A stretch of DNA of 64,000 nt. Origin: Sitta carolinensis (lineage: Eukaryota > Chordata > Aves > Passeriformes > Sittidae). The position numbers were made by a program, and so were the translations under genes. The notes beneath the pieces are model-generated. The model made no database searches, was not told the origin of the DNA, and worked only from the letters and a program-made list of their open reading frames with translations. Of this stretch, positions 27,802 through 49,549 are shown piece after piece. The stretch spans positions 115,247,187 through 115,311,186 of the forward strand of contig CM063283.1 in assembly GCA_032173965.1 (NCBI GenBank), written 5' to 3'. Every line of letters starts with the position of its first letter. Position 1 is the stretch's first letter.

Positions 27802-27833
<32 letters not shown>

Positions 27834-28645: not shown

Positions 28646-28653
28646 CTTTTATA
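28646..28653 (-). promoter_or_regulatory. TATA box of array-family copy A
   Basis: TATAAAAG in a GGC...GAGCC context, 178 bp upstream of the start-codon position. Upstream (28665-28790) lie a cAMP-element-like TGACATCA and three spaced 'tttgtgacagtgtgg'-type repeats. The array copies retain the TATA box but read TCACATCA instead. Confidence 0.75.
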
Positions 28654-29361
28654 GCCTGGCAGTCTGGTAGAATCCCCTCTGTGACATCATGGGGCAGCCA
28701 GAGCCCACTTTGTGACAGTGTGGTGCACTCAGAAATTCCTTTGTGACAGTGTGGGGCAAGCAGAAATCCCTTTGGGAAATGGGGAGCCCTCGCTGCCTTG
28801 GGCATGGGACCGGGAGAAAGTAAACTCATGAGGTAATAGAAGCAAATTAGCAAAAAATCAGAAGGCAAAATAAAAACAAGAAAAGAGAAAAGAAGTGACG
28901 TGATGGGGAGAGGCTGTCCTGGGCACAGCGACCACCAAAGGAGGAGTTGTGGATTCCCAGGGGAGCAAGGAGGGAGGCAGCAGAAAGAGAGAGGGAGAGT
29001 TTTTGGGAGAAGGGGTAGCAAAGCAGGGGGTGACAAGGAGTTCCTAAGCTCCTGCCAGCAGCCGGCACGGCCCCCGACGCCGCGCCCGCCCCGCCGGCTG
29101 CGGCTGCGGCTGTGGGAAGCGGGGCAGCTCCTGGCCCCACCACGGATCCGCGCTCGGCATGCGGAGCACCAGCTCCTCCAAGCTGCTGCTGCTGCTGCTT
29201 CCGCTGCTGCCGCTGCCCTCCAGGCCCTCGGCCATCACCACGTCCCTGGGGATGAACCAGGCCATGGCCGCGCCGCCCGTGCCTGCCGCCGGCCGCTGCT
29301 CCGCGGGGCTCTGCGGACGCTCCGCGCCCCCCAGCAGCCTCGGCTCCACGGGCGCCTCGGG

Positions 29362-29852
29362 CTAAGCTTTGCAGACACTCTGCATCCTCGGCCACTGGGC
29401 CAGCTGCGCCTCCAGCTCCCTGAGGCGCTCCTCGAAGAGGCCTGGGAGTCCTGGCAGCTCCGGATGAACCTTGGCAATCGCCTCCTGGAGCTCATGGATC
29501 TGCCTGGGGAGCTGCCGGGGGGCAGCTCCACATCTCCTGATCTCCGTGCCCTCTCCACGTTGCTCTGCCTCTGCAGCCGGCCTCTGGCTGCGCCCGGATG
29601 CTCCGGGTCCTGATGGATCCTCTGCAAGAAGCACAGATGGGTGAGGGAAGAGCAGCTCCCCAGAACGCTCCACACTGTCCTGTCACGCATGCCACACCAA
29701 ACCACACGGCCCAGCCCAGCCCAGCCAGCAGAGCAGAGGCCACCCACCCAGAGACTCTTGTGCCGTAGCACGACAGTGATCAGGATGAGCTGCAGCACCA
29801 AGATCATGATCGCCACCAGCTCGCCCTCGGTCACGATGTAGAGGAACTCCAT
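29362..29852 (-). pseudogene. Array-family gene, copy B
   Basis: Exon 1 is 29748-29852, starting ATG GAG (array copies have ATG GGG) and ending TCTCTGG before the GTGGGT donor. Exon 2 begins at 29621 after a normal TTGCAG acceptor. A one-base deletion near 29432, where array copies read 'gaagagcgcc', breaks the frame. The shared premature TAG is present at 29362-29364. Its own promoter is missing: an LTR ends 6 bp plus a degenerate leader upstream (29999). It lies between copy A and the truncated provirus and has no counterpart in the right arm. Confidence 0.7.
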
Positions 29853-29998
29853 GGCACTGTAGCACTCCCAGGTCAGCAGCACAGGCCAGTGAAGGGGCTC
29901 CCCAGACACCTGCAGGGTCCCAGTGAGGGGAATCCAACCTCGAGGGATGGCAGAGGCTGAGGCTGTTGTCTGCCAGCACACTGACAATTTTTTTGCAC

Positions 29999-32900
29999 TG
30001 TTACTGTGACGCAGATAGAAACACACAGCAACACACACAACAGGTGTTCAGGCAGAGAAGTAGAAAGGAAGTAGATTCTAGTTTATTGTTGACCTCGTAT
30101 CTATCAGTTTCTGGACAGTGATCAGAGATTGGACAGAGAGGTTACCACCTCTCCATCTTCACTGGTCACTTGAGAAGTCCATCAGGTGATATCTTTTACA
30201 AAGGAATGCAAACATGATTCTTGTTTATCTCACAATTCATGAGAACTGACTCCACTATAGTAAAACAAATTAGAAGGCTTATTTTCAGGGACAACATCTC
30301 ACCCTTTTACCATTACAAAAAGAAAAAGAAAAAAGAAAAATGAACAATGCTCTATTACAAAAGAAAAGGAAAAACTGAACAATGTTTCATCATCAAAAGA
30401 AAGAAAATGAACAATGATTCATGTCTGCTTGATGAAGAAAAATTTTTGAAGTGATCACTCATGTTTTCTGTACCAAAACCATCATCCAATGGTTCATTCA
30501 CCTGATGATTTTCAGTTTGGTCATGGTTTCCAACCTGCCCATCATCTGGGTGTTGCCTTTGCAACCAGGTTATTGAAAATATGCAACACTTCCAGGTGAG
30601 CGATGGTATACAAAGCTCTTGCCAAACAACTGTGCGGGGTTCCACCCTGCATTCCCCGTTTTTGGTTTTGTAGAACACGCTTTTGTATACATGAGCACAT
30701 TGTACAACAGGTTGACCAGTCAGGGAATGAGACTTGCGTGACACACCCTACATCTGCAGGAACTGCTGCACCTTCAGAGAGGTGTAAGCAGAACCTTCGT
30801 TGGTCTTCACAGGAGAAGGCATGCCTAGAATGGCAAAGGCCTGCCTCCAGTGGGCAATGACATCATGGGTCTTCCCTCCAGTGTGAGCTGAAGCTCACAT
30901 CACAAAGAAGAAGGTGTCAACAGCGATATGCACATACCTGAGCTGGCCAAACTCTGCAACTTGGGTGACATCACTCTGTCAAAGCTCCAAGGCCTCTGGG
31001 CGTCACCACTGCCAGAAAAGGCACAGCAAACTCATGACAGTCCCCACAAGGCTTGACAATGTCACGCCCTCAGTTGCTGTCAATTGAAAACTCCTGCAAG
31101 GTACGTGCTGTCTGACGGAGAAACCCAAGCAATGCCTTGGCCTGCGCGAGTGTCAGGCTGAGGTGCTACCCAGGCTGGGTTAGCCAACTTGTCAGCCCTC
31201 ACGTGACCTTCAGCCATGAACCCTGGCAAATTCACATGACTCTTCACAGGCAGAATGGAAAATGAAGGGACCTGGGCCTGAATGGCACACCACAGAGTCC
31301 CCAGCAAAGGGAACAAAGCAACCATGTCAGCCACACAGGCAGAAACCCATGACCAAAGTGAAAATTCCTGGGAATTCTCAAAATGTCAGGACATCAACAC
31401 AGGCTTCCATGATTCCACAAAGTGGGCTGATCGATCCTCATGACTTTTCAAAACCTGACAAATCCAGAGTAGTTATGAAAACAGGGACATCAATGGAGGA
31501 AGACTGCGATAAATTTGAAGAGCAGAAAAAGCTCACAGAGCCCCACCAGCATGTGACGTGCCTCAGGGGTCAGTGTTTGAGGCGTCTTTGATTCAGAGTC
31601 TCCCTCTAACTATTCAAGCAAAGGAGACAATTGTGTTGCCCAAATTATGGACACAACCAAGCAACGAGTCCCACTAATTTCTGGGCTCTGCTGCACTTGA
31701 TTTTAGGACTGATAGTCCCAAAGCACTCAGAATCTTCACTGAATGCACAAATTGCGCCTCGTGACCTTAGGATTCCTGATCCAGAGGTCTTAGGACTCCT
31801 GGTCCTAATTTTGAACCTCCTAATATTTCCAAGGAGGATTTTCGTGAGCTCCTTTTCGGACCCACTGTTTGTGAGCTTCAAGCAAAGCTCATGCCAACAC
31901 CATCAAGAATGAATGGCCGGCCAATTTCACATGCCTTCATGGCTGTCTGCCATTGATATCTCTGTATGGACCCAGCACTGCTGATAGCTAGCACTGAGAA
32001 GACACATTTCATCTTTCATTGGAATGCAAAGGAACAGAAATGAAAAACCCAAAACAACACTTCAGATCCATGAGGAGGACCCAGCCAATCGGCCAGGAGC
32101 ATGATGGACAACATCAGATCAGCCTGCAACATCCCCATGCTTTCACCATGGCCTTGATCAGCCAGAGGATTTTTCAACAACCTGCAATTCCCAGAGTTTC
32201 TTTGATGCAGAAAACAAGAGCAATCAGGGCCTGGCAGAAGACACCAGATGACCCTGGTCCAATTGAAGTCCATCCTGAAAAACAACCACACAAGCCAGAA
32301 CCCCCACCCCCAGAGAGTCCCATCAGCATCAGTGGAAAAATGAGGCCAAATCCTGGCCACCAGTCCCTCTGGGTCTATGTTCATCACCGGTCTCTGGCTC
32401 ACGCAGCACTGCACCATCCTTGTCACGGCCACAACTGTCTGCTCTGGCACCAAGGAACTCAGGAAGATGAATCTCTGAAGGTGCAGCAGAAATGGACATG
32501 ACACACAGTGTCTCAGGATGTGCTGTGATCTTCAGGACACCTGCCCAGTGGATTCGAGGTGGCCCAGGAGTCGAAGCCACCTTCTCCCTGCACTTAGACG
32601 TCAATCCTGTGAACACAAAACTCAAAAAACACACATTGAGCAAACTTGCTCTTCACAACAGCAGCAAGGCTGGCAGACCCAATGGAAGAGGACCCATTCA
32701 CCTGGGATCCTTCGTCCAGGGAAATCACTGTCCCTCCAACAGCCACGTCTCTGCCTGCTCCAGAAGGAACCAACGCAGAGCCGGCAGCTGCCGCAGCCTT
32801 GGCTTTTGTGGGAGGCGTCAGCAGTGAAACCGAAGCAGCCACAGGTCCCGGCGGGGCACACGAACCCAAGGCGGGACGGAGCGGCGCCAACTCTGCTCGC

Positions 32901-33211
32901 CACTCCCCCAGCGCGGGGGGAGAACGGGACGCAGCGAGGGGCGCGGCGGGCGCAGCCGCGGGAGCACCGCCCGCCGCCCCGGGGCCGACCGGCGGCAGGG
33001 CACCCAGCACGGGCGGCAAGGGAGGGGAAAACCGCTCGGGGGGCCCCGCGGGCCCGGTGACAACCGGCCCAGCCGCCGCAGCGGGCACGGCGGCCACAAC
33101 CCCGCTCGGCGGGGCCGCCGCTGCGAGGCGTGCTGTTTGCGATGCCACCGCATCGCCCCCCGCCGCCTTCACGGGGCCGGCGGGCGGCCCGGGAGCCAAC
33201 AAGGGCAGCGC
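29999..33211 (-). mobile_element. Short provirus, left copy, 5'-truncated
   Basis: On the minus strand it consists of a GC-rich gag-like segment (33211 to about 32594), an internal region without recognisable pol or env, a purine-rich tract AAAAGGGTGAGA, and a 298-bp LTR (30296-29999; TGTTGTCCC...GTAACA). The outer flank of the LTR is GTGCAA read on the minus strand, as at the other copies. It is nearly identical to 48932-52141. The 5' LTR, primer-binding site and first part of gag are missing; the break at 33211 joins directly to an array promoter. Confidence 0.88.
32594..33211 (-). pseudogene. Gag-like Pro/Ala-rich open frame, 5'-truncated
   Basis: About 205 open codons rich in Ala, Pro and Gly. 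Composition and position after the leader suggest the proline-rich part of a retroviral gag, but no capsid major-homology or zinc-knuckle motif is visible. The frame continues upstream through the junction into the array promoter's leader without an ATG, where only GTG would be available near the junction. The right-arm counterpart ends at 49549. Confidence 0.5.
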
Positions 33212-33254
33212 TGCCAAGTTGTTGTGCACAACACTGTCTGCTCCTGTGGGGCTC

Positions 33255-33262
33255 CTTTTATA
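33255..33262 (-). promoter_or_regulatory. Array TATA box facing the truncated gag-like segment
   Basis: TATAAAAG with the usual array context. About 45 bp downstream the array sequence stops (33212) and the retroviral GC-rich segment begins, so any transcript from here would run into the gag-like frame instead of a family gene. Confidence 0.7.
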
Positions 33263-33933
33263 GCCTGGCAGTCTGGTGGAATCCCCTCTGTCACATCATG
33301 GGACAGCCAGACCCCACTCGGTGACAGTGTGGGGCAGGCAGAAATCCCTTTGTGAAATGGGGAGCCCTCGCTGCCTTGGGCATGGGACGGGAGAAAGTAA
33401 ACTCGTGAGGTAATAGAAACAAATTAGCAAAAAATCAGACGGCAAAATAAAAACAAGAAAAGAGAAAAGAAGTGATGTGATGGGGGGAGGCTGTCCTGGG
33501 CACAGCGACCACCAGAGGAGGAGTTGTGGATTCCCAGGGGAGCAAGGAGGGAGCAGCAGAAAGAAGAGGGAGGGGCCTTTGGGAGAAGGGGCAGCAAAGC
33601 AGGGGGTGACAAGGAGTTCCTAAGCTCCTGCCAGCACCGGCACGGCCCCCGGCGCCGCGCCTGCCCCGCCGGCTGCGGCTGCGGCTGTGGGGAGCGGGGC
33701 AGCTCCTGGCCCCACCACGGATCCGCGCTCGGCATGCGGAGCACCAGCTCCTCCAAGCTGCTGCTGCTGCTTCCGCTGCTGCCGCTGCCCTCCAGGCCCT
33801 CGGCCATCACCACGTCCCTGGGGATGAACCAGGCCATGGCCGCGCCGCCCGTGCCTGCCGCCGGCCGCTGCTCCGCGGGGCTCTGCATACGCTCCGCGCC
33901 CCCCAGCAGCCTCGGCTCCACGGGCGCCTTGGG

Positions 33934-34425
33934 CTAAGCCCTGCAGCCACTCTGCATCCTCGGCCGCTGGGCCAGCTGCGCCTCCAGCTCCCTGTGGCGC
34001 TCCTCGAAGAGCGCCTGGGAGTCCTGGCAGCTCCGGATGAACCTTGGCAATCGCCTCCTGGAGCTCATGGATCTGGCTGGGGAGCTGCCGGGGGGCAGCT
34101 CCACATCTCCTGATCTCCGTGCCCTCTCCACGTTGCTCTGCCTCTGCAGCCGGCCTCTGGCTGCGCCCGGATGCTCCAGGTCCTGATGGATCCTCTCCAA
34201 GAAGCACAGATGGGTGAGGGAAGAGCAGCTCCCCAGAACGCTCCACACTGTCCTGTCACGCATGCCACACCAAACCACACGGCCCAGCCCAGCCCAGCCA
34301 GCAGAGCAGAGGCCACCCACCCAGAGACTCTTGTGCCGTAGCACGACAGTGATCAGGATGAGCTGCAGCACCAAGATCATGATCGCCACCAGCTCGCCCT
34401 CGGTCACGATGTAGAGGAACCCCAT
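33934..34425 (-). CDS. Array-family small membrane protein, unit 1
   Basis: Exon 1 is 34321-34425 (35 codons). Its ATG lies in a strong AGTGCCATGG context, followed by a hydrophobic helix (VAIMILVLQLILITVVL) and a basic end RHKSLW. The intron is 126 nt (34195-34320), GTGGGT to TTGGAG. Exon 2 (33934-34194) encodes 86 residues and a TAG stop; it is rich in Arg and includes QALFEERHRELEAQLAQ. The predicted product is 121 residues with one membrane span. The TATA box lies at 34599-34606. The same frame reopens after the TAG for roughly 100 more codons with MAWFIPRDVV, so the stop truncates a once longer protein. The acceptor has G at -3, a weak choice. I do not recognise the family. It may be expressed in truncated form or be a pseudogene. 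Confidence 0.6.
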   Translation of the reverse strand: MGFLYIVTEGELVAIMILVLQLILITVVLRHKSLWVGGLCSAGWAGLGRVVWCGMRDRTVWSVLGSCSSLTHLCFLERIHQDLEHPGAARGRLQRQSNVERARRSGDVELPPGSSPARSMSSRRRLPRFIRSCQDSQALFEERHRELEAQLAQRPRMQSGCRA

Positions 34426-35279
34426 GGCACTGTAGCACTCCCAGGTCAGTAGCACAGGCCAGTGAAGGGGCTCCCCAGACACCTGCAGGGTCCCAGTGAG
34501 GGGAATCCAACCCTGGAGGGATGGCAGAGGCTGAGGCTGTTGTCTGCCAGCACACTGCCAAGTTGTTGTGCACAACACTGTCTGCTCCTGTGGGGCTCCT
34601 TTTATAGCCTGGCAGTCTGGTGGAATCCCCTCTGTCACATCATGGGACAGCCAGACCCCACTCGGTGACAGTGTGGGGCAGGCAGAAATCCCTTTGTGAA
34701 ATGGGGAGCCCTCGCTGCCTTGGGCATGGGACCGGGAGAAAGTAAACTCGTGAGGTAATAGAAACAAATAGCAAAAAATCAGACGGCAAAATAAAAACAA
34801 GAAAAGAGAAAAGAAGTGATGTGATGGGGGGAGGCTGTCCTGGGCACAGCGACCACCAGAGGAGGAGTTGTGGATTCCCAGGGGAGCAAGGAGGGAGGCA
34901 GCAGAAAGAGAGAGGGAGGGCCTTTGGGAGAAGGGGCAGCAAAGCAGGGGGTGACAAGGAGTTCCTAAGCTCCTGCCAGCACCCGGCACGGCCCCCGGCG
35001 CCGCGCCTGCCCCGCCGGCTGCGGCTGCGGCTGTGGGGAGCGGGGCAGCTCCTGGCCCCACCACGGATCCGCGCTCGGCATGCGGAGCACCAGCTCCTCC
35101 AAGCTGCTGCTGCTGCTTCCGCTGCTGCCGCTGCCCTCCAGGCCCTCGGCCATCACCACGTCCCTGGGGATGAACCAGGCCATGGCCGCGCCGCCCGTGC
35201 CTGCCGCCGGCCGCTGCTCCGCGGGGCTCTGCATACGCTCCGCGCCCCCCAGCAGCCTCGGCTCCACGGGCGCCTTGGG

Positions 35280-35771
35280 CTAAGCCCTGCAGCCACTCTG
35301 CATCCTCGGCCGCTGGGCCAGCTGCGCCTCCAGCTCCCTGTGGCGCTCCTCGAAGAGCGCCTGGGAGTCCTGGCAGCTCCGGATGAACCTTGGCAATCGC
35401 CTCCTGGAGCTCATGGATCTGGCTGGGGAGCTGCCGGGGGGCAGCTCCACATCTCCTGATCTCCGTGCCCTCTCCACGTTGCTCTGCCTCTGCAGCCGGC
35501 CTCTGGCTGCGCCCGGATGCTCCAGGTCCTGATGGATCCTCTCCAAGAAGCACAGATGGGTGAGGGAAGAGCAGCTCCCCAGAACGCTCCACACTGTCCT
35601 GTCACGCATGCCACACCAAACCACACGGCCCAGCCCAGCCCAGCCAGCAGAGCAGAGGCCACCCACCCAGAGACTCTTGTGCCGTAGCACGACAGTGATC
35701 AGGATGAGCTGCAGCACCAAGATCATGATCGCCACCAGCTCGCCCTCGGTCACGATGTAGAGGAACCCCAT
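35280..35771 (-). CDS. Array-family small membrane protein, unit 2
   Basis: Exon 1 is 35667-35771 and exon 2 is 35280-35540, the same lengths as unit 1; the visible coding sequence is the same. The TATA box is at 35945-35952. It shares the premature TAG and the GAG acceptor. The repeat distance to unit 1 is 1346 bp throughout, so the two copies are a recent duplication or have been kept alike by gene conversion. Confidence 0.6.
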   Translation of the reverse strand: MGFLYIVTEGELVAIMILVLQLILITVVLRHKSLWVGGLCSAGWAGLGRVVWCGMRDRTVWSVLGSCSSLTHLCFLERIHQDLEHPGAARGRLQRQSNVERARRSGDVELPPGSSPARSMSSRRRLPRFIRSCQDSQALFEERHRELEAQLAQRPRMQSGCRA

Positions 35772-36612
35772 GGCACTGTAGCACTCCCAGGTCAGTAGCA
35801 CAGGCCAGTGAAGGGGCTCCCCAGACACCTGCAGGGTCCCAGTGAGGGGAATCCAACCCTGGAGGGATGGCAGAGGCTGAGGCTGTTGTCTGCCAGCACA
35901 CTGCCAAGTTGTTGTGCACAACACTGTCTGCTCCTGTGGGGCTCCTTTTATAGCCTGGCAGTCTGGTGGAATCCCCTCTGTCACATCATGGGACAGCCAG
36001 ACCCCACTCGGTGACAGTGTGGGGCAGGCAGAAATCCCTTTGTGAAATGGGGAGCCCTCGCTGCCTTGGGCATGGGACCGGGAGAAAGTAAACTCGTGAG
36101 GTAATAGAAACAAATTAAGGCAAAATAAAAACAAGAAAAGAGAAAAGAAGTGACGTGATGGGGAGAGGCTGTCCTGGGCACAGCGACCACCAAAGGAGGA
36201 GTTGTGGATTCCCAGGGGAGCAAGGAGGGAGGCAGCAGAAAGAGAGAGGGAGGGCATTTGGGAGAAGGGGTAGCAAAGCAGGGGGTGACAAGGAGTTCCT
36301 AAGCTCCTGCCAGCACCTGGCACGGCCCCCGGCGCCGCGCCCCCCCGCCGGCTGCGGCTGCGGCTGTGGGGAGCGGGGCAGCTCCTGGCCCCACCACGGA
36401 TCCGCGCTCGGCATGCGGAGCACCAGCTCCTCCAAGCTGCTGCTGCTGCTTCCGCTGCTGCCGCTGCCCTCCAGGCCCTCGGCCATCACCACGTCCCTGG
36501 GGATGAACCAGGCCATGGCCGCGCCGCCCGTGCCTGCCGCCGGCCGCTGCTCCGCGGGGCTCTGCATACGCTCCGCACCCCCCAGCAGCCTCGGCTCCAC
36601 GGGCGCCTTGGG

Positions 36613-37104
36613 CTAAGCCCTGCAGACACTCTGCATCCTCGGCCACTGGGCCAGCTGCGCCTCCAGCTCCCTGTGGCGCTCCTCGAAGAGCGCCTGGGAG
36701 TCCTGGCAGCTCCGGATGAACCTTGGCAATCGCCTCCTGGAGCTCATGGATCTGGCTGGGGAGCTGCCGGGGGGCAGCTCCACATCTCCTGATCTCCGTG
36801 CCCTCTCCACGTTGCTCTGCCTCTGCAGCCGGCCTCTGGCTGCGCCCGGATGCTCCGGGTCCTGATGGATCCTCTCCAAGAAGCACAGATGGGTGAGGGA
36901 AGAGCAGCTCCCCAGAACGCTCCACACTGTCCTGTCACGCATGCCACACCAAACCACACGGCCCAGCCCAGCCCAGCCAGCAGAGCAGAGGCCACCCACC
37001 CAGAGACTCTTGTGCCGTAGCACGACAGTGATCAGGATGAGCTGCAGCACCAAGATCATGATCGCCACCAGCTCGCCCTCGGTCACGATGTAGAGGAACC
37101 CCAT
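36613..37104 (-). CDS. Array-family small membrane protein, unit 3
   Basis: Exon 1 is 37000-37104 and exon 2 is 36613-36873. Small differences from units 1 and 2 include a Trp and a Val codon near the end of exon 2 (AQWPRMQSVCRA). The TATA box is at 37277-37284. The 3' part of this unit has a few deleted bases around 36110-36120 and 36343. The frame of the 121-residue product is intact. Confidence 0.6.
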   Translation of the reverse strand: MGFLYIVTEGELVAIMILVLQLILITVVLRHKSLWVGGLCSAGWAGLGRVVWCGMRDRTVWSVLGSCSSLTHLCFLERIHQDPEHPGAARGRLQRQSNVERARRSGDVELPPGSSPARSMSSRRRLPRFIRSCQDSQALFEERHRELEAQLAQWPRMQSVCRA

Positions 37105-37670
37105 GGCACTGTAGCACTCCCAGGTCAGTAGCACAGGCCAGTGAAGGGGCTCCCCAGACACCTGCAGGGTCCCAGTGAGGGGAATCCAACCCTGGAGGGA
37201 TGGCAGAGGCTGAGGCTGTTGTCTGCCAGCACACTGCCAAGTTGTTGTGCACAACACTGTCTGCTCTGTGGGGCTCCTTTTATAGCCTGGCAGTCTGGTG
37301 GAATCCCCTCTGTCACATCATGGGACAGCCAGACCCCACTCGGTGACAGTGTGGGGCAGGCAGAAATCCCTTTGTGAAATGGGGAGCCCTCGCTGCCTTG
37401 GGCATGGGACCGGGAGAAAGTAAACTCGTGAGGTAATAGAAACAAATTAGCAAAAAATCAGACGGCAAAATAAAAACAAGAAAAGAGAAAAGAAGTGATG
37501 TGATGGGGGAGGCTGTCCTGCTTCGCTGCTGCCGCTGCCCTCCGCCCTCGGCATCACCAGTCCCGGGGATGAACCAGGCCTGGCCGCGCCGCCGTGCCTG
37601 CGCCGGCCGCTGCTCCGCGGGTCTGCAACGCTCCGCGCCCCCCAGCAGCCTCGGCTCCACGGGCGCCTGG

Positions 37671-38135
37671 CTAAGCCCTGCAGCCACTCTGCATCCTCGG
37701 CCGCTGGGCCAGCTGCGCTCCAGCTCCTGTGCGCTCCTCGAAGAGCGCCTGGAGTCCTGCAGCTCCGGATGAACCTTGCAATCGCTCCTGGAGCTCATGG
37801 ATTGGCTGGGAGCTGCCGGGGGGCAGCTCCACATCTCCTGATCTCCGTGCCTCTCCACGTTGCTCTGCCTCTGCAGCGCCTCTGGCTGCGCCCGGATGCT
37901 CCGGCCTGATGGATCCTCTCCAAGAAGCACAGATGGGTGAGGGAAGACACTCCCCAGAACGCTCCACACTGTCCTGTCACATGCCCACCAACCACACGCC
38001 CACCCGCCCAGCCAGCAGAGCAGAGCCACCCACCCAGAGACTCTTGTGCCGTAGCACGACAGTGATCAGGATGACTGCAGCACAAGATCATGATCGCACC
38101 AGCTCGCCCTCGGTCACGATGTAGAGGAACCCCAT
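37671..38135 (-). pseudogene. Array-family gene, unit 4, indel-ridden
   Basis: An ATG at 38135 and a TATA box at 38299-38306 are present, but more than ten single-base deletions relative to clean units break exon 1, the intron and exon 2. The sequence beyond the gene is fused at about 37523 by a ~300-bp deletion. Many lost bases lie in short homopolymers, which fits either decay or an uncorrected read consensus. Confidence 0.6.
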
Positions 38136-38938
38136 GGCACTGTAGCACTCCCAGGTCAGTAGCACAGGCCATGAAGGGCTCCCAGACACCTGCAGGTCCC
38201 AGTGAGGGAATCCAACCCTGGAGGGATGCAGAGGCTGAGCTGTTGTCTGCCAGCACACTGCAGTTGTTGTGCACAACACTGTCTGCTCCTGTGGGCTCCT
38301 TTTATAGCCTGGCAGTCTGGTGGAATCCCCTCTGTCACATCATGGACAGCCAGACCCACTCGTGACAGTGTGGGCAGGCAGAAATCCCTTTTGAAATGGG
38401 GAGCCCTCGCTGCCTGGGCATGGGACGGAGAAAAAACTCGTGAGGTAATAAAACAAATAGCAAAAAATCAGAGGCAAAATAAAAACAAGAAAAGAGAAAA
38501 GAAGTGATGATGGGGAGGCTGTCTGGGCACAGCGCCACCAAGGAGGAGTTGTGGTCCCAGGGGAGCAAGGAGGGAGGCAGCAGAAAGAGAGGGAGGCTTT
38601 GGGAAGGGGCAGCAAAGCAGGGGTGACAAGGGTTCCTAAGCTCCTGCCAGCACCGGCACGGCCCCCGGCGCCGCGCCCGCCCGCGGCGCGGCTGGGCTGT
38701 GGGGAGCGGGCAGCTCCTGCCCCACCACGGATCCGCGCTCGGCATGCGGAGCACCAGTCCTCCAAGCTGCTGCTGCTGCTTCCGCTGCTGCCGCTGCCCT
38801 CCAGGCCCTCGCCATCACCACGTCCCTGGGATGAACCAGGCCATGGCCGCGCCGCCCGTGCCTGCCGCCGGCCGCTGCTCCGCGGGCTCTGCATACGCTC
38901 CGCGCCCCCAGCAGCCTCGGCTCCACGGGCGCCTTGGG

Positions 38939-39418
38939 CTAAGCCCTGCAGCCACTCTGCATCCTCGGCGCTGGGCCAGCGCGCCTCCAGCCCCTGTGGC
39001 GCTCCTCGAAGAGCGCCTGGGAGTCCTGGCAGCTCCGGATGACCTTGGCAATCGCCTCCTGGAGCTCATGGATCTGGCTGGGGAGCTGCCGGGGGCAGCT
39101 CCACATTCCTGATCTCCGTGCCCTCTCCACGTTGCTCTGCCTCTGCAGCCGGCCTCTGGCTGCGCCCGATGCTCCGGTCTGATGGATCCTCTCCAAGAAG
39201 CACAGATGGGTGAGGGAAGAGCAGCTCCCCAGAACGCTCCACACTGTCCTGTCACGCATGCCACACCAAACCACACGGCCCAGCCCAGCCAGCCAGCAGA
39301 GCAGAGGCCACCCACCCAGAGACTCTTGTGCCGTAGCACGACAGTGATCAGGATGAGCTGCAGCACCAAGATCATGATCCCACCAGCTCGCCCTCGGTCA
39401 CATGTAGAGGAACCCCAT
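38939..39418 (-). pseudogene. Array-family gene, unit 5, indel-ridden
   Basis: ATG at 39418, TATA box at 39589-39596. Several one-base losses lie in exon 1 (for example 'gatcccaccagc' for 'gatcgccaccagc') and in exon 2. The 3' region is full length but also carries indels. Confidence 0.6.
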
Positions 39419-39985
39419 GGCACTGTAGCACTCCCAGGTCAGTAGCACAGCCAGTGAAGGGGCTCCCCAGACACCTGCAGGGTCCCAGTGGGGAATCCAA
39501 CCCTGGAGGGATGGCAGAGGCTGAGGCTGTTGTCTGCCAGCACACTGCCAAGTTGTTGTGCACAACACTGTCTGCTCCTGTGGGGCTCCTTTTATAGCCT
39601 GGCAGTCTGGTGGAATCCCCTCTGTCACATCATGGGACAGCCAGACCCCACTCGGTGACGTGTGGGGCAGGCAGAAATCCCTTTGTGAAATGGGGAGCCC
39701 TCGCTGCCTTGGGCATGGGACCGGGAGAAAGTAAACTCGTGAGGTAATAGAAACAAATTAGCAAAAAATCAGACGGCAAAATAAAACAAGAAAAGAGAAA
39801 AGAAGTGACGTGATGGGGAGGCTGTGCTCCGCTGCTGCCGCTGCCCTCCAGGCCCTCGCCATCACCACTCCCTGGGGATGAACCAGGCCATGGCCGCGCC
39901 GCCCGTGCCTGCCGCCGGCCGCTGCTCGCGGGGCTCTGCATACGCTCCGCGCCCCCCAGCAGCCTCGGCTCCACGGGCGCCTGGG

Positions 39986-40467
39986 CTAAGCCCTGCAGCC
40001 ACTCTGCATCCTCGGCCCTGGGCCAGCTGCGCCTCCAGCTCCCTGTGGCGCTCCTCAAGAGCGCCTGGGAGTCCTGGCAGCTCCGATGAACCTTGGCAAT
40101 CGCCTCCTGGAGCTCATGATCTGGCTGGGGAGCTGCCGGGGGCAGCTCCACATCTCCTGATCTCCTGCCCTCTCCACGTTGCTCTGCCTCTGCAGCCGGC
40201 CTCTGGCTGCGCCCGGATGCTCCGGGTCCTGATGGATCCTCTCCAAGAACACAGATGGGTGAGGGAAGAGCAGCTCCCAGAACGCTCCACACTGTCCTGT
40301 CACGCAGCCACACCAAACCACACGGCCCAGCCCAGCCCAGCCAGCAGAGCAGAGGCCACCCACCCAGAGACTCTTGTGCCGTAGCACGACGTGATCAGGA
40401 TGAGCTGCAGCACCAAGATCATGATCGCCACCAGCTCGCCCTCGGTCACGATGTAGAGGAACCCCAT
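39986..40467 (-). pseudogene. Array-family gene, unit 6, indel-ridden
   Basis: ATG at 40467, TATA box at 40635-40642. It has single-base losses in both exons. As in unit 4, about 300 bp are missing just past the gene (junction near 39824), with a similar breakpoint. Confidence 0.6.
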
Positions 40468-41286
40468 GGCACTGTACCACTCCCAGGTCAGTGCACAGGC
40501 CAGTGAAGGGCTCCCCAGACACCTGCAGGGTCCCAGTGAGGGGAATCCAACCCTGGAGGGATGGCAGAGGCTGAGGCTGTTGTCTGCCAGCACACTGCAA
40601 GTTTTGTGCACAACCTGTCTGCTCCTGTGGGCTCCTTTTATAGCCTGGCAGTCTGGTGGAATCCCCTCTGTCACATCATGGGACAGCCAGACCCCACTCG
40701 GTGACAGTGTGGGGCAGGCAGAAATCCCTTGTGAAATGGGGACCCTCGCTGCCTTGGGCATGGGACCGGGAGAAAGTAAACTCGTGAGGTAATAGAAACA
40801 AATTAGCAAAAAACAGACGGCAAATAAAAACAAGAAAGAGAAAAGAAGTGATGTGATGGGGGAGGCTGTCCTGGGCACAGCGACCACCAGAGGAGGAGTT
40901 GTGGATTCCCAGGGGAGCAAGGAGGGAGGCAGCAGAAAGAGAGAGGAGGCCTTTGGAGAAGGGGCAGCAAGCAGGGGTGACAAGGATTCCTAAGCTCCTG
41001 CCAGCACGGCACGGCCCCCGGCGCGCCCCGCCCCGCCGGCTGCGCTGGCGGCTGTGGGGAGCGGGGCAGCTCTGGCCCCACCACGGATCCGCGCTCGGCA
41101 TGCGGAGCACCAGCTCCTCCAAGCTGCTGCTGCTGCTTCCGCGTGCTGCGCTGCCCTCCAGGCCCTCGGCATCACCACGTCCCTGGGATGAACAGCCATG
41201 GCCGCCGCCCCGTGCCTGCCGCCGGCCGCTGCTCCGCGGGGCTCTGCATACCTCCGCGCCCCCCAGCAGCCTCGGCCAGGCGCCTG

Positions 41287-41761
41287 GGCAAGCTGCAGCC
41301 ACTCTGCATCCTGCCACGGGCCAGCTGCGCCTCCAGCTCCCTGTGGCGCTCCTCGAAGAGCCCTGGGAGTCCTGGCAGCCCGGATGACCTGGCAATCGCC
41401 TCCTGGAGCTCATGGATCTGGCTGGGGAGCTGCCGGGGGCAGCTCCACATCCCTGACCCGTGCCCTCTCCACGTTGCTCTGCTCTGCAGCCGGCCTCTGG
41501 CTGCGCCCGGGGCTCCAGGTCCTGATGGATCCCCTCCAGAGCACAGATGGGTGAGGGAAGAGCAGCTCCCCAGAACGCTCCCACACTGTCCTGTCACGCA
41601 GCCACACCTAACCACACGGCCCAGCCCAGCCCAGCCAGCGAGCAAGAGCCACCCACCCAGAGACTCTTGTGCCGTAGCACGACAGTGATCAGGATGAGCT
41701 GCAGCACCAAGATCATGATCGCCACCAGCTCGCCCTCGGTCACGATGTAGAGGAACCCCAT
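41287..41761 (-). pseudogene. Array-family gene, unit 7, exon 2 indel-ridden
   Basis: The TATA box (41934-41941) and exon 1 look clean, with ATG at 41761. From about 41655 downward the copy is full of one- and two-base losses, and the usual TAG near 41287 is changed. The sharp border between clean and noisy sequence is itself unusual. Confidence 0.6.
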
Positions 41762-42614
41762 GGCACTGTAGCACTCCCAGGTCAGTAGCACAGGCCAGTG
41801 AAGGGGCTCCCAGACACCTGCAGGGTCCCAGTGAGGGGAATCCAACCCTGGAGGGATGGCAGAGGCTGAGGCTGTTGTCTGCCAGCACACTGCCAAGTTG
41901 TTGTGCACAACACTGTCTGCTCCTGTGGGGCTCCTTTTATAGCCTGGCAGTCTGGTGGAATCCCCTCTGTCACATCATGGGACAGCCAGACCCCACTCGG
42001 TGACAGTGTGGGGCAGGCAGAAATCCCTTTGTGAAATGGGGAGCCCTCGCTGCCTTGGGCATGGGACCGGGAGAAAGTAAACTCGTGAGGTAATAGAAAC
42101 AAATTAGCAAAAAATCAGACGGCAAAATAAAAACAAGAAAAGAGAAAAGAAGTGATGTGATGGGGGGAGGCTGTCCTGGGCACAGCGACCACCAGAGGAG
42201 GAGTTGTGGATTCCCAGGGGAGCAAGGAGGGAGGCAGCAGAAAGAGAGAGGGAGGGCCTTTGGGAGAAGGGGCAGCAAAGCAGGGGGTGACAAGGAGTTC
42301 CTAAGCTCCTGCCAGCACCTGGCACGGCCCCGGCGCCGCGCCCGCCCCGCCGGCTGCGGCTGCGGCTGTGGGGAGCGGGGCAGCTCCTGGCCCCACCACG
42401 GATCCGCGCTCGGCATGCGGAGCACCAGCTCCTCCAAGCTGCTGCTGCTGCTTCCGCTGCTGCCGCTGCCCTCCAGGCCCTCGGCCATCACCACGTCCCT
42501 GGGGATGAACCAGGCCATGGCCGCGCCGCCCGTGCCTGCCGCCGGCCGCTGCTCCGCGGGGCTCTGCATACGCTCCGCGCCCCCCAGCAGCCTCGGCTCC
42601 ACGGGCGCCTTGGG

Positions 42615-43105
42615 CTAAGCCCTGCAGCCACTCTGCATCCTCGGCCCTGGGCCAGCTGCGCCTCCAGCTCCCTGTGGCGCTCCTCGAAGAGCGCCTGGGA
42701 GTCCTGGCAGCTCCGGATGAACCTTGGCAATCGCCTCCTGGAGCTCATGGATCTGGCTGGGGAGCTGCCGGGGGGCAGCTCCACATCTCCTGATCTCCGT
42801 GCCCTCTCCACGTTGCTCTGCCTCTGCAGCCGGCCTCTGGCTGCGCCCGGATGCTCCGGGTCCTGATGGATCCTCTCCAAGAAGCACAGATGGGTGAGGG
42901 AAGAGCAGCTCCCCAGAACGCTCCACACTGTCCTGTCACGCATGCCACACCAAACCACACGGCCCAGCCCAGCCCAGCCAGCAGAGCAGAGGCCACCCAC
43001 CCAGAGACTCTTGTGCCGTAGCACGACAGTGATCAGGATGAGCTGCAGCACCAAGATCATGATCGCCACCAGCTCGCCCTCGGTCACGATGTAGAGGAAC
43101 CCCAT
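42615..43105 (-). pseudogene. Array-family gene, unit 8, one-base frameshift
   Basis: Exon 1 (43001-43105) and the exon 2 start (42874) match units 1-3. The TATA box is at 43279-43286. One base is missing near 42646 ('tcggccctgggcc' for 'tcggccgctgggcc'), which shifts the frame about ten codons before the shared TAG and carries it into a different, longer open frame. Confidence 0.6.
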
Positions 43106-43958
43106 GGCACTGTAGCACTCCCAGGTCAGTAGCACAGGCCAGTGAAGGGGCTCCCCAGACACCTGCAGGGTCCCAGTGAGGGGAATCCAACCCTGGAGGG
43201 ATGGCAGAGGCTGAGGCTGTTGTCTGCCAGCACACTGCCAAGTTGTTGTGCACAACACTGTCTGCTCCTGTGGGGCTCCTTTTATAGCCTGGCAGTCTGG
43301 TGGAATCCCCTCTGTCACATCATGGGACAGCCAGACCCCACTCGGTGACAGTGTGGGGCAGGCAGAAATCCCTTTGTGAAATGGGGAGCCCTCGCTGCCT
43401 TGGGCATGGGACCGGGAGAAAGTAAACTCGTGAGGTAATAGAAACAAATTAGCAAAAAATCAGACGGCAAAATAAAAACAAGAAAAGAGAAAAGAAGTGA
43501 TGTGATGGGGGAGGCTGTCCTGGGCACAGCGACCACCAGAGGAGGAGTTGTGGATTCCCAGGGGAGCAAGGAGGGAGGCAGCAGAAAGAGAGAGGGAGGG
43601 CCTTTGGGAGAAGGGGCAGCAAAGCAGGGGGTGACAAGGAGTTCCTAAGCTCCTGCCAGCACCCGGCACGGCCCCCGGCGCCGCGCCGCCCCGCCGGCTG
43701 CGGCTGCGGCTGTGGGGAGCGGGGCAGCTCCTGGCCCCACCACGGATCCGCGCTCGGCATGCGGAGCACCAGCTCCTCCAAGCTGCTGCTGCTGCTTCCG
43801 CTGCTGCCGCTGCCCTCCAGGCCCTCGGCCATCACCACGTCCCTGGGGATGAACCAGGCCATGGCCGCGCCGCCCGTGCCTGCCGCCGGCCGCTGCTCCG
43901 CGGGGCTCTGCATACGCTCCGCGCCCCCCAGCAGCCTCGGCTCCACGGGCGCCTTGGG

Positions 43959-44450
43959 CTAAGCCCTGCAGCCACTCTGCATCCTCGGCCACTGGGCCAG
44001 CTGCGCCTCCAGCTCCCTGTGGCGCTCCTCGAAGAGCGCCTGGGAGTCCTGGCAGCTCCGGATGAACCTTGGCAATCGCCTCCTGGAGCTCATGGATCTG
44101 GCTGGGGAGCTGCCGGGGGGCAGCTCCACATCTCCTGATCTCCGTGCCCTCTCCACGTTGCTCTGCCTCTGCAGCCGGCCTCTGGCTGCGCCCGGATGCT
44201 CCGGGTCCTGATGGATCCTCTCCAAGAAGCACAGATGGGTGAGGGAAGAGCAGCTCCCCAGAACGCTCCACACTGTCCTGTCACGCATGCCACACCAAAC
44301 CACACGGCCCAGCCCAGCCCAGCCAGCAGAGCAGAGGCCACCCACCCAGAGACTCTTGTGCCGTAGCACGACAGTGATCAGGATGAGCTGCAGCACCAAG
44401 ATCATGATCGCCACCAGCTCGCCCTCGGTCACGATGTAGAGGAACCCCAT
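43959..44450 (-). CDS. Array-family small membrane protein, unit 9
   Basis: Exon 1 is 44346-44450 and exon 2 is 43959-44219, giving the 121-residue product with an intact frame. The TATA box is at 44624-44631. It shares the GAG acceptor and premature TAG with units 1-3. Confidence 0.6.
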   Translation of the reverse strand: MGFLYIVTEGELVAIMILVLQLILITVVLRHKSLWVGGLCSAGWAGLGRVVWCGMRDRTVWSVLGSCSSLTHLCFLERIHQDPEHPGAARGRLQRQSNVERARRSGDVELPPGSSPARSMSSRRRLPRFIRSCQDSQALFEERHRELEAQLAQWPRMQSGCRA

Positions 44451-45308
44451 GGCACTGTAGCACTCCCAGGTCAGTAGCACAGGCCAGTGAAGGGGCTCCC
44501 CAGACACCTGCAGGGTCCCAGTGAGGGGAATCCAACCCTGGAGGGATGGCAGAGGCTGAGGCTGTTGTCTGCCAGCACACTGCCAAGTTGTTGTGCACAA
44601 CACTGTCTGCTCCTGTGGGGCTCCTTTTATAGCCTGGCAGTCTGGTGGAATCCCCTCTGTCACATCATGGGACAGCCAGACCCCACTCGGTGACAGTGTG
44701 GGGCAGGCAGAAATCCCTTTGTGAAATGGGGAGCCCTCGCTGCCTTGGGCATGGGACCGGGAGAAAGTAAACTCGTGAGGTAATAGAAACAAATGAGCAA
44801 AAAAATCAGACGGCAAAATAAAAACAAGAAAAGAGAAAAGAAGTGACGTGATGGGAGAGGCTGTCCTGGGCACAGCGACCACCAAAGGAGGAGTTGTGGA
44901 TTCCCAGGGGAGCAAGGAGGGAGGCAGCAGAAAGAGAGAGGGAGGGCCTTTGGGAGAAGGGGCAGCAAAGCAGGGGGTGACAAGGAGTTCCTAAGCTCCT
45001 GCCAGCACCTGGCACGGCCCCCGGCGCCGCGCCCGGCCCGCCGGCTGCGGCTGCGGCTGTGGGGAGCGGGGCAGCTCCTGGCCCCACCACGGATCCGCGC
45101 TCGGCATGCGGAGCACCAGCTCCTCCAAGCTGCTGCTGCTGCTTCCGCTGCTGCTGCCGCTGCCCTCCAGGCCCTCGGCCATCACCACGTCCCTGGGGAT
45201 GAACCAGGCCATGGCCGCGCCGCCCGTGCCTGCCGCCGGCCGCTGCTCCGCGGGGCTCTGCATACGCTCCGCGCCCCCCAGCAGCCTCGGCTCCACGGGC
45301 GCCTCGGG

Positions 45309-45799
45309 CTAAGCCCTGCAGCCACTCTGCATCCTCGGCCACTGGGCCAGCTGCGCCTCCAGCTCCCTGAGGCGCTCCTCGAAGAGCGCCTGGGAGTCCT
45401 GGCAGCTCCGGATGAACCTTGGCAATCGCCTCCTGGAGCTCATGGATCTGGCTGGGGAGCTGCCGGGGGGCAGCTCCACATCTCCTGATCTCCGTGCCCT
45501 CTCCACGTTGCTCTGCCTCTGCAGCCGGCCTCTGGCTGCGCCCAGATGCTCCGGGTCCTGATGGATCCTCTGCAATAGCACAGATGGGTGAGGGAAGAGC
45601 AGCTGCCCAGAACGCTCCACACTGTCCTGTCACGCATGCCACACCAAACCACACGGCCCAGCCCAGCCCAGCCAGCAGAGCAGAGGCCACCCACCTACAG
45701 ACTCTTGTCCCGTAGCTTGATAGTGACCAGGATGAGCTGCAGCACCAAGATCGTGATTGCCGCCAGCTCGCAGTCGGTGAAGATGTCGAGGAACCCCAT
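45309..45799 (-). pseudogene. Array-family gene, unit 10, LTR in place of promoter
   Basis: Exon 1 (45695-45799) belongs to the other subtype, as in copies A and C: FLDIFTD after the start, and CTGTAG before the GTGGGT donor, so an in-frame stop ends exon 1 unless GTAGGT 3 bp earlier is used. Exon 2 (45309-45569) has a normal TTGCAG acceptor but carries the premature TAG. Upstream, 150 bp away, is the provirus LTR (45950-46245) with flank GTGCAA instead of a TATA box. Confidence 0.6.
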
Positions 45800-45949
45800 G
45801 GCACTCTCTGTAGCACCACCAGGTCAGCAGCACAGGCCAGTGAAGGGGCTCCCCAGACACCTGCAGGGTCCCAGTGAGGGGAATCCAACCCTGGAGGATG
45901 GCAGAGGCTGAGGCTGTTTTTTGTCAGCACACTGACAATTTTTTTGCAC

Positions 45950-47201
45950 TGTTACTGTGACGCAGATAGAAACACACAGCAACACACACAACAGGTGTTC
46001 AGGCAGAGAAGTAGAAAGGAAGTAGATTTAGTTTATTGTTGACCTCGTATCTATCAGTTTCTGGTCAGTGATCAGAGATTGGACAGAGAGGTTACCACCT
46101 CTCCATCTTCACTGGTCACTTGAGAAGTCCATCAGGTGATATCTTTTACAAAGGAATGCAAACATGATTCTTGTTTATCTCACAATTCATGAGAACTGAC
46201 TCCACTATAGTAAAACAAATTAGAAGGTTATTTTCAGGGACAACATCTCACCCTTTTACCATTACAAAAAGAAAAAGAAAAAAGAAAAATGAACAATGCT
46301 CTATTACAAAAGAAAAGGAAAAACTGAACAATGTTTCATCATCAAAAGAAAGAAAATGAACAATGATTCATGTCTGCTTGATGAAGAAAAATTTTTGAAG
46401 TGATCACTCATGTTTCTGTACCAAAACCATCATCCAATGGTTCATTCACCTGATGATTTTCAGTTTGGTCATGGTTTCCAACCTGCCCATCATCTGGGTG
46501 TTGCCTTTGCAACCAGGTTATTGAAAATATGCAACACTTCCAGGTGAGCGATGGTATACAAAGCTCTTGCCAAACAACTGTGCGGGGTTCCACCCTGCAT
46601 TCCCCGTTTTTGGTTTTGTAGAACACGCTTTTGTATACATGAGCACATTGTACAACAGGTTGACCAGTCAGGGAATGAGACTTGCGTGACACACCCTACA
46701 TCTGCAGGAACTGCTGCACCTTCAGAGAGGTGTAAGCAGAACCTTCGTTGGTCTTCACAGCAGAAGGCATGCCTAGAATGGCAAAGGCCTGCCTCCAGTG
46801 GGCAATGACATCATGGGTCTTCCCTCCAGTGTGAGCTGAAGCTCACATCACAAAGAAGAAGGTGTCAACAGCGACATGCACATACCTGAGCTGGCCAAAC
46901 TCTGCAACTTGGGTGACATCACTCTGTCAAAGCTCCAAGGCCTCTGGGCGTCACCACTGCCAGAAAAGGCACAGCAAACTCATGACAGTCCCCACAAGGC
47001 TTGACAATGTCACGCCCTCAGTTGCTGTCAATTGAAAACTCCTGCAAGGTACGTGCTGTCTGACGGAGAAACCCAAGCAATGCCTTGGCCTGCGCGAGTG
47101 TCAGGCTGAGGTGCTACCCAGGCTGGGTTAGCCAACTTGTCAGCCCTCACGTGACCTTCAGACATGAACCCTGGCGAATTCACATGACTCTTCACAGGCA
47201 G
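45950..47201 (-). mobile_element. Short provirus, middle copy, 3' end only
   Basis: An LTR (45950-46245) plus about 955 bp of internal sequence, nearly identical to 29999-31255. The sequence breaks off at about 47201, exactly where orientation of the surrounding unit sequence flips. The same GTGCAA flank as at 29998 and 52142 shows it is a duplicate of one integration. Confidence 0.88.
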
Positions 47202-47662
47202 CACAGGAGCTCAGGACCTCCTCTGCTTTGCTGCCCCTTCTCCCAAAGGCCTCCCTCTCTTTTCTGCTGACTCCCTCCTTGCTCCCCTGGGAATCCACAA
47301 CTCCTCCTTTGGTGGTCGCTGTGCCCAGGACAGCCTCTCCCCATCACATCACTTCTTTTCTCTTTTCTTGTTTTTATTTTGCCTTCTGATTTTTTGTTGA
47401 TTTGTTTCTATTACCTCACGAGTTTACTTTCTCACAGTCCCATGCACAAGGCAGCGAGGGCTCCCCATTTCACAAAGGGATTTCTGCCTGCCCCACACTG
47501 TGACAAAGGGATTTCTGCCTGCCCTACACTGTGACAAAGCGATTTCTGAGTGCCCCAACTGTCACAAAGAGGGCTCTGGCTGCCCCTTGATGTCACAGAG
47601 GGGATTCTACCAGACTGCCAGGCTATAAATGGAGCCCCACAGGAGCAGACAGTGTTGTGCAC
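47202..47662 (+). promoter_or_regulatory. Array-unit intergenic region and promoter in plus orientation
   Basis: From 47204 the sequence matches the reverse complement of the array's intergenic stretch, ending in a TATA box (TATAAAT, 47624-47630). Upstream are four spaced 'gtgacaaag/gtcacaaag'-type repeats (47485-47600) and a TGATGTCA element, more copies than array units have. The provirus LTR begins at 47663, so this promoter has lost its gene. Confidence 0.8.
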
Positions 47663-48116
47663 TGTTGTCCCTGAAAATAAGCCTTCTGATTTGTTTTACT
47701 ATAGTGGAGTCAGTTCTCATGAATTGTGAGATAAACAAGAATCATGTTTGCATTCCTTTGTAAAAGTATCACCTGATGGACTTCTCAAGTGACCAGTGAA
47801 AATGGAGAGGTGGTAACCTCTCTGTCCAATCTCTGATCACTGTCCAGAAACTGATAGATACGAGGTCAAGAATAAACTAGAATCTTCTTCCTTTCTTTTT
47901 CTCTGCCTGAACACCTGTTGTGTGTGTTGCTGCGTGTTTCTATCTGCGTCACATTAATATCTGGTGACCCCGACCAAAAAGGACAGCTTGGTAGGTCACG
48001 GAGGTAAGCTCTGCTGACCCCTGACTGTGGGACTGTTGTGGTGGGATCTGAAAGGAGATCCCCTGACCCCCTGTCTCTCGTGCGACTGTACACTTTTTAT
48101 CTCTCAGTTGGGTAGG

Positions 48117-48228: not shown

Positions 48229-48835
48229 CGTTGGGCAGAGGTCAAGGCTGCTTCCCTGAACCTGGAGATGCATTCTTTTTGGAGGCATGGTCGCTTTTGG
48301 GGGAGGTTCTCCGAAAATCCCTTCGTGTCAGCTGGAATGCTGGTACAGCGAGGCTGTTGTTGAACTGTGAACGTTTTATTAACTTTTTGCGAGGCTGGAG
48401 ACGGCGTCTAATTCTGGCGTCTCCGCAGACGCGCAGGGTGTTCGGAGCGTCTCTCCCGCCCCGGGGGCAGGTGACGGTGCAGAGCGGGACGCTGGCAGCG
48501 CGGAGGCTGCAGCTGATTCCAGCGAGGCCGCGCGTCCCGGCTCCCCCGCGGGTTCCTCCCCGCCTGCACCGGCATCGCCGCTGGGAGCGTTCCCCGCGCT
48601 GCGGGCAGAGCCCGGGCCGGCGGGGGTTTCTGTCCCCGCTGCTGCGGCCCCGCCGGACATGGCGGGGGGCCCGTATATCGTGACCGGGGCAACGGGACAG
48701 GCTCGCTGACTCCACGCGGGCCCGAGGCCCCCGCGGGCCCCTCCCCGCCTGCTCCGGCCCCTCAGCGGGGGCCGAGCCCTCGGGAGCGGTGCGGGACAGT
48801 GCTGCCATGGCTCTGCAGGCCCCGCCCGTCACTGC

Positions 48836-49549
48836 TTGGCCCGTGAGGGGCGGCGGGAGCTGCCGCTTGCAGTGAGGGGTCTGGGCCGGGGCTCAGCGCC
48901 CCCGTCCCTCCCCGAGCGGATTTCCCCTGCCGCGCTGCCCTTGTTGGCTCCCGGGCCGCCCGCCGGCCCCGTGAAGGCGGCGGGGGGCGATGCGGTGGCA
49001 TCGCAAACAGCACGCCTCGCAGCGGCGGCCCCGCCGAGCGGGGTTGTGGCCGCCGTGCCCGCTGCGGCGGCTGGGCCGGTTGTCACCGGGCCCGCGGGGC
49101 CCCCCGAGCGGTTTTCCCCTCCCTTGCCGCCCGTGCTGGGTGCCCTGCCGCCGGTCGGCCCCGGGGCGGCGGGCGGTGCTCCCGCGGCTGCGCCCGCCGC
49201 GCCCCTCGCTGCGTCCCGTTCTCCCCCCGCGCTGGGGGAGTGGCGAGCAGAGTTGGCGCCGCTCCGTCCCGCCTTGGGTTCGTGTGCCCCGCCGGGACCT
49301 GTGGCTGCTTCGGTTTCACTGCTGACGCCTCCCACAAAAGCCAAGGCTGCGGCAGCTGCCGGCTCTGCGTTGGTTCCTTCTGGAGCAGGCAGAGACGTGG
49401 CTGTTGGAGGGACAGTGATTTCCCTGGACGAAGGATCCCAGGTGAATGGGTCCTCTTCCATTGGGTCTGGCAGCCTTGCTGCTGTTGTGAAGAGCAAGTT
49501 TGCTCAATGTGTGTTTTTTGAGTTTTGTGTTCACAGGATTGACGTCTAA
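48836..49549 (+). pseudogene. Gag-like Pro/Ala-rich open frame, right copy
   Basis: About 237 open codons with no in-frame ATG at the head (it starts at TTG). It is rich in Ala, Pro and Gly and turns hydrophilic after about codon 160. The left-arm copy (32594-33211) differs by about one residue in the overlapping part seen. The bases are very GC-rich, unlike the internal region that follows. It is a gag remnant by position only. Confidence 0.45.

Follow-up and report, generated by a model that had tools for sequence, protein, structure and literature searches.

The window analysed here is a stretch of 64,000 nucleotides from Sitta carolinensis (C1:115247187-115311186, C1 being contig CM063283.1 of assembly GCA_032173965.1), and at positions 33212-45949 it holds a tandem array of ten copies of a small two-exon gene. 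The array is probably the result of a recent amplification of a tail-less, and itself probably impaired, copy belonging to a family of membrane proteins of passerine birds, which we call undescribed in the sense that it was not found in the literature searches made. An earlier note on this DNA, made from the sequence alone, had described the array as an amplified two-exon gene; its copies are not the full-length form of that gene, as relatives go on for ~130-150 residues beyond the stop that ends the array copies at residue 121, and the promoter, the splice acceptor and the head-tail junction are altered in the array. Intact members of the family stand 0.7 and 1.0 Mb away on C1, in a second array (B) and in gene C.

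The array and its units

Altogether 13 copies of exon 1, the intron and the start of exon 2 are found in the window, 12 on the minus strand and one on the plus strand, and ten of these run head to tail on the minus strand, flanked by inverted arms; the arrangement reported previously, of ten head-to-tail copies and thirteen in the window inside a palindrome, is thus present in the assembly. Copies are named here by the position of their exon 1, and the head is defined as the first ~110 residues, with the membrane helix, the tails that follow having been sorted by eye into three types. The two exons, the 126-nt intron and its phase are as had been described, with a W|RI junction that is the same in homologues, and the membrane-helix exon likewise has its counterpart there. 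The features of the array are as follows.

33212-45949, minus strand: tandem array of 10 truncated gene copies, undamaged unit ~1345 bases
34600-34606, minus strand: TATAAAA of the first array copy, 181 bases upstream of its ATG
34321-34425, minus strand: coding part of exon 1 of array copy 1, 35 residues with a membrane helix, matching the N-terminal 35 residues of passerine homologues
34195-34320, minus strand: 126-base intron of array copy 1, with acceptor TTGGAG as against TTGCAG in B, C and four other window copies
33934-34194, minus strand: exon 2 of array copy 1 up to the TAG at 33934-33936, the remaining conserved head
33640-33933, minus strand: remnant of a type 1 tail (AMAWFIPRD ... 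PWWG), following the TAG without a change of frame
35280-35771, minus strand: array copy with full 121-residue frame
36613-37104, minus strand: array copy with full 121-residue frame
43959-44450, minus strand: array copy with full 121-residue frame
42612-43105, minus strand: array copy with a one-base loss (frameshift) in exon 2
37518-41908, minus strand: four interior copies (exon 1 at 38135, 39418, 40467 and 41761) with deletions of 1-2 bases, likely an unpolished consensus
45012-45799, minus strand: outermost array copy, a mosaic with exon 1 like that of 52293 and an array-like exon 2, without TATA

The unit length of 1.345 kb given earlier holds for four of the nine start-to-start steps, which measure 1344-1349 bases, and not for the remaining five (1333, 1031, 1283, 1049 and 1294 bases), four of the nine being shorter through damage. 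Nor is every copy clean, as had been claimed. TATAAAA lies within 260 bases upstream in 10 of the 13 window copies, 171-185 bases before the start (171-181 bases before the ATG in the nine array copies that carry it), and other DNA takes its place at copies 29852, 45799 and 52293; copy A starts with ACG, and the full 121-residue frame is kept by four copies (34425, 35771, 37104 and 44450, all in the array), the head frame being broken in the other nine. Among the ten array copies an exon 1 frame ending in W is retained by six, five of them with W|RI; exon 1 is interrupted by small gaps in three and has a TAG replacing the W in 45799, and the complete conserved head is in frame in four.

One-sided small deletions are the look of unpolished long-read sequence, and the interior of the array shows such a pattern. 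When the nine other units were aligned to unit 44450 as reference, units 38135, 39418, 40467 and 41761 together gave 158 deletions of 1-2 bases, 5 insertions and 11 mismatches, two of the four also being without 271-273 further bases; the other five units gave in total 10 small deletions, 11 insertions and 40 mismatches, 27 of the latter in 45799. Since the one-sided errors of the interior units resemble unpolished long reads the array copy number is not to be trusted, and the true number of copies is uncertain. It is possible, if doubtful, that the real array is far shorter or far longer and that the palindrome stems in part from misjoined reads, for which both the surplus of small deletions and the larger losses in the interior units would be expected signs, and this would be compatible with the amplification of a tail-less copy proposed above. 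Against such an artefact stand the outer units, which are clean and few substitutions apart, the second array at 116.0 Mb, and the arms of the palindrome, which differ by substitutions at 0.9-1.6% of places (75 of 8449 and 66 of 4127 aligned bases in two blocks, 99.1% and 98.4% identity), probably more than in the usual allelic duplicate.

A family found in passerine birds

The absence of a homologue outside this locus had been set beforehand as one half of a test of the earlier note's claim, and homologues were found. Used as a query, the array protein returned one swallow protein at E<=10 and the exon 2 frame of copy A eight passerine proteins at the same threshold; a profile built from seven of those eight (P0008 was left out), with 7991 candidates scored, gave 30 proteins at E<=1, of which 29 bear passerine names and one (P0018) no species name. 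The family spans the Tyranni (manakins and flycatchers) and the Passeri (crows, tits, finches, starlings and thrushes), and more distant relatives may be missed because the search was word-based. The nearest rows to P0018 are hawfinch and tree-finch at 89% identity; it comes from a 1280-base contig with the source given as 'lgn', and no intron residues interrupt its frame at the junction, so we read the contig as derived from sequenced RNA, which the record itself does not say.

Homologues that include exon 1 have a part of 35 residues that ends in LW and is followed by RI, the same junction as in the window, and the family shares the head motif SSRRxFPRFIRSxxDSxxLFEExxxELEAQL. Exon 1 helix, junction and head motif are common to the array and to the uncharacterised proteins of Parus major (LOC117245092), Corvus hawaiiensis (LOC125321180) and Taeniopygia guttata (LOC115497223), which have a type 1 tail, and of Corvus kubaryi (LOC121658760) and Ficedula albicollis (LOC107603601), which have a type 2 tail. 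Unlike the window array, with its stop at 121 residues and its altered acceptor and promoter, these proteins carry the full tail and measure 263-274 residues, the flycatcher model reaching 356 residues with an N-terminal extension.

The family members, where named, are all uncharacterised, hypothetical or unnamed. Literature searches by locus names of the family gave no paper, and those by topic no title or abstract opening that names it; the proposal of an undescribed system stands to that extent. Neither the array protein nor the exon 2 frame of copy A nor any of five homologues gave a Pfam match near the curated cut-off, and a search of solved structures gave a single match at E 0.28. AlphaFold models have a mean pLDDT of 52.8 (type 1) and 45.6 (type 2) and are confident only in the N-terminal helix of type 1.

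Intact members on the same contig

Searching this genome with the protein of a relative gave at least 35 matches, all of those listed lying on C1 at 115.275-116.323 Mb, and a DNA search gave 36 matches there and, on C39, a single one of 51 bases. Apart from this short C39 match the family occupies three places in the last 1.1 Mb of C1, namely the window array, array B and gene C. Array B, at ~116.007-116.025 Mb, has six exon 1 copies by alignment; five were spliced, of which two encode 247 residues (C1:116015830 and 116019665) and three end early at 108, 56 and 77 residues, and the sixth, 116007840, starts with TTG. Gene C, at C1:116321950, encodes 249 residues. These three intact genes are built alike, with TATAAAA, a first exon that includes a hydrophobic segment, an intron of 126 nt and one long second exon, and each has a full-length tail of type 1, 2 or 3, which the array lacks. 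It was also observed that within array B (C1:116013500-116025600) gene copies alternate with remnants in a repeat of ~3.8 kb, the remnants keeping the promoter and tail and giving no match to exon 1.

Signs of decay and exchange in the array

A G at the third base before a splice acceptor is strongly disfavoured in vertebrates, and GAG is the acceptor of nine of the ten array copies (eight TTGGAG and one CTGGAG). CAG is found in 45799, in three other window copies that are not GAG and in seven aligned B and C copies. The head-tail junction reads GCTTAGCC, which brings in a stop, in nine of the ten array copies (not 41761) and in 29852, and GTGCAGCC in copy A, in 52293 and in 6/6 B copies, and the octamer TGATGTCA, which may be a CRE-like element, is present in copy A, all six B copies and C and absent from 10/10 array copies, 29852 and 52293. 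Judging from these differences the window array is likely a degraded branch of the family.

There is weight on the other side of this reading. Four array copies keep the 121-residue frame, the ATG and the TATA box with a stop that falls in the last exon, the three other full-frame units differ from 44450 by only 2-8 mismatches, and an AG still stands at the array acceptor; on these grounds the array may yet make a working head-only protein. Furthermore two of the six B copies (116007840 and 116009602) are without TATAAAA, which indicates that locus B is partly decayed too. Taken further, the array copies could be a live ampliconic gene giving a working head-only membrane protein at high dose, likely in germ cells, and here the intact TATA, ATG and frame of four copies and the near identity of the undamaged units would be joined by an annotated starling isoform (P0030, 144 residues) that also ends within the head. 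We regard this as decidedly unlikely given the GAG acceptors, the missing promoter octamer, the lack of AATAAA or ATTAAA downstream of the stop in the single array unit inspected, and the existence of full-length relatives in both passerine suborders.

Whatever their activity, copies have not all stayed separate. Exon 1 of copy 45799 has 2/105 differences from 52293 and 15 from array copy 34425, and the head part of its exon 2 has 12/222 differences from 52293 and 3/225 from 34425, so that, by this comparison of sequences, 45799 is a mosaic in which exchange between copies is visible inside the window. An immediate TAG before the donor is shared by copy A, 45799 and 52293.

Common heads and private tails

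Trees of heads and of tails were made from 23 of the 30 proteins together with two of this genome, leaving out P0001, P0008, P0009, P0018, P0023, P0024 and P0030, several of which are short or partial. Seven pairs of proteins with different tails, six within one species and one across two Corvus species, have heads alike at 93-108 of 106-110 places and tails alike at only 35-55 of 104-144 places. Head identity within a species is 85-98%. Between oscine species tails of the same type match at ~57-83% and heads at 66-81%.

On the head tree the tail type takes 10 changes, with a mean of 10.7 when shuffled, and a four-state clade label takes 3; same-species pairs with different tails group together in zebra finch (100/99), this genome (100/99), hawfinch (99/96) and Empidonax (97/92), and Corvus is unresolved. 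On the tail tree all types take 3 changes and the clade label 6. Type 2 forms one clade (99/97), within which Tyranni and Passeri are set apart, and from this it follows that the type 2 tail predates the oscine-suboscine split; type 3 does not form a single clade, as its hawfinch row joins type 1. Gene C has its tail next to those of flycatcher, thrush and starlings (96/89), in keeping with a likely origin of the window from an oscine near them. As the head tree goes mostly by species and the tail tree by type, heads have become uniform since that split in several lineages, and gene conversion confined to the 5' part is to our mind the simplest cause.

Two sets of results do not fit easily with such a cause. 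The manakin rows of the head tree fall partly by tail type (Pipra with Pseudopipra type 1, 97/90; Pipra with Chiroxiphia type 3, 85/71), which suggests that homogenisation is incomplete in some lineages. Secondly, loci of this genome were compared using five chosen copies of the 20 aligned, giving ten pairs that are not independent, and in nine of these the coding head differs by 8.5-12.4% and the promoter, leader and intron by 1.6-3.9% (4.0% and 2.2% in the tenth pair, of two array B copies). The coding excess has p<0.01 in nine of the ten pairs and, with CpG sites removed, in seven; it is not predicted by plain head homogenisation, and either exchange recently confined to non-coding parts or fast coding change may lie behind it. 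Ratios of non-synonymous to synonymous change (dN/dS) between copies are 0.47-1.09 over the 17 pairs computed, which indicates weak constraint at best. Positive selection was considered as a cause of the fast exons and is not supported, because synonymous change is raised too. It was also considered whether the 5' leader is better kept than the head between species as a general rule: the leader frame matches at 78-84% and the head at 66-72% against flycatcher P0017 and tree-finch P0022, and the rule fails with suboscines P0025 and P0027, where the figures are 47-53% and 58-61%.

That conservation between the loci of this genome is highest in promoter, 5' leader and intron, and that the head frame is broken in 9/13 window copies, might be taken to mean that the gene remnants are kept as a source of non-coding transcripts, such as a small-RNA cluster, an idea that is highly improbable in view of the open frames of 247-249 residues at the intact loci and the conserved proteins in many species, the dN/dS values adding weak constraint at best.

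A proposed mechanism

If the array does derive from the amplification of a tail-less copy, unequal crossing-over from one already truncated copy likely gave rise to it, and its copies would provide at most a short membrane-anchored head with no tail. The intact proteins are predicted to sit in the membrane with a short outer N-terminus and with a basic head helix and a Ser-rich tail in the cytoplasm, a topology based on the positive charges that follow the helix, and the proposed role is that of a membrane tether with exchangeable cytoplasmic tails. Gene conversion would keep the block of promoter, exon 1, intron and head common across the genes and leave the tails private, with the array copies as bystanders of the exchange, presumably impaired in splicing and promoter, which may now and then serve as exchange partners, as the mosaic copy 45799 suggests. 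A bolder version, which we put forward tentatively and consider rather unlikely as a whole, is that conversion in this passerine-only family has kept one head, promoter and intron common and the cytoplasmic tails private for tens of millions of years, and that the array is a bank of tail-less heads, donating to full-length genes or competing with their products at the membrane.

Surroundings of the array

The inverted arms are ~97.7% identical (BLAST, gaps included) and, with the gene copies outside the array and one of the associated repeats, are placed as follows.

20109-33214, plus strand: palindrome arm 1
48929-60659, minus strand: palindrome arm 2
27682-28468, minus strand: copy A in arm 1, with an ACG start, a TAG just before the donor and an open tail frame
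29065-29852, minus strand: arm 1 copy adjoining copy A, with an array-like exon 1, no TATA and a one-base gap in exon 2
52293-53069, plus strand: arm 2 copy without TATA, its donor immediately preceded by a TAG and its exon 2 interrupted by small gaps
29998-30297, no strand assigned: dispersed 300-base repeat at the promoter position of copy 29852

Relatives of this repeat at 45949-46246 and 51843-52142 occupy the promoter place of copies 45799 and 52293. The repeat is also found at 13185-13492 and 47652-47953; compared with the occurrence at 13.2 kb the four others show 84-85% identity, and three abut gene copies without a promoter. A tandem repeat with a 31-base unit (CCCCACACTGTCACAAAGG...) occurs at 28708-28774 and 47472-47586, within the upstream part of the promoter block or close to it, and similar sequence also stands upstream of the intact genes. 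Both arms contain retrovirus-like pol and env frames (21339-26176, minus strand, and 54551-59407, plus strand), and because it is in both arms this insertion likely predates the inverted duplication. Beside the array end both arms also have a GC-rich stretch (32640-33263, plus strand, and 48829-49503, minus strand) with long open frames of 207 and 224 residues, MEEDPFTWDPSS... Nothing in the window reached the gathering score in Rfam.

The array had been placed between CLIC6 and GART, which is right as to the CLIC exons nearby and needs revision as to GART. The CLIC exons, found at 14837-19658 with a human CLIC4 query, are named CLIC6 because they adjoin an RCAN gene (C1:115188580-115193253). 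The GART exon at 63441 belongs to a decayed plus-strand copy, many of whose later exons are in poor condition, and a better-kept GART with an identical first coding exon lies on the minus strand, from C1:115367634 to 115341234, the two standing tail to tail across 63441-64000 and C1:115310627-115367634. First coding exons identical in protein with later exons widely different suggest a recent exchange of the 5' end. The idea that GART and CLIC6 mark the breakpoints of an inversion was rejected because the GART of the window is a duplicate.

The earlier note had also pointed to sex chromosomes as a setting for such arrays. With CLIC6, RCAN1 and GART beside it the array, judged by synteny, does not lie on a sex chromosome, and we infer that C1, which spans 116.35 Mb, is chromosome 1. 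The last 9654 bases of C1 hold no telomeric run, so the contig end may not be the chromosome end.

Relation to known systems and significance

Ampliconic palindromes of sex chromosomes combine tandem and inverted copies with exchange, as is the case here, but the array lies on a chromosome-1-like contig and its amplified unit is truncated. Arms more than 99% identical through continuing conversion are typical of such palindromes, and the arms here reach 99.1% and 98.4% by substitutions and ~97.7% when gaps are counted. Avian class IIB genes of the major histocompatibility complex (MHC) are similar in that copies are homogenised within species whilst ancient lineages persist; here, unlike in MHC class IIB, it is the N-terminal half and promoter that are homogenised and the C-terminal tail that is private, and no sequence relation between the two was found, no search aimed at one having been made. 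Songbird-unique genes such as TMRA have been reported at rearranged sites (Wirthlin et al. 2014, PMC4377847). TMRA resembles the present family as a lineage-restricted membrane protein and differs from it in lying on chr1A and in having three membrane helices and a lectin domain; the gene set described there is unique to songbirds, whereas the present family also occurs in suboscines, and none of the loci in Table 1 of that paper is the present family by name or place.

In arrays of this kind poor sequence can underlie both automatic gene models and copy counts. More than half of all bird species are perching birds, and the family described here was found in these alone, close to the end of the contig with GART and CLIC6, with literature searches giving no name or study of it. 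Its evolution with a common head and private tails would make it a clear test case for gene conversion that is limited to part of a gene.

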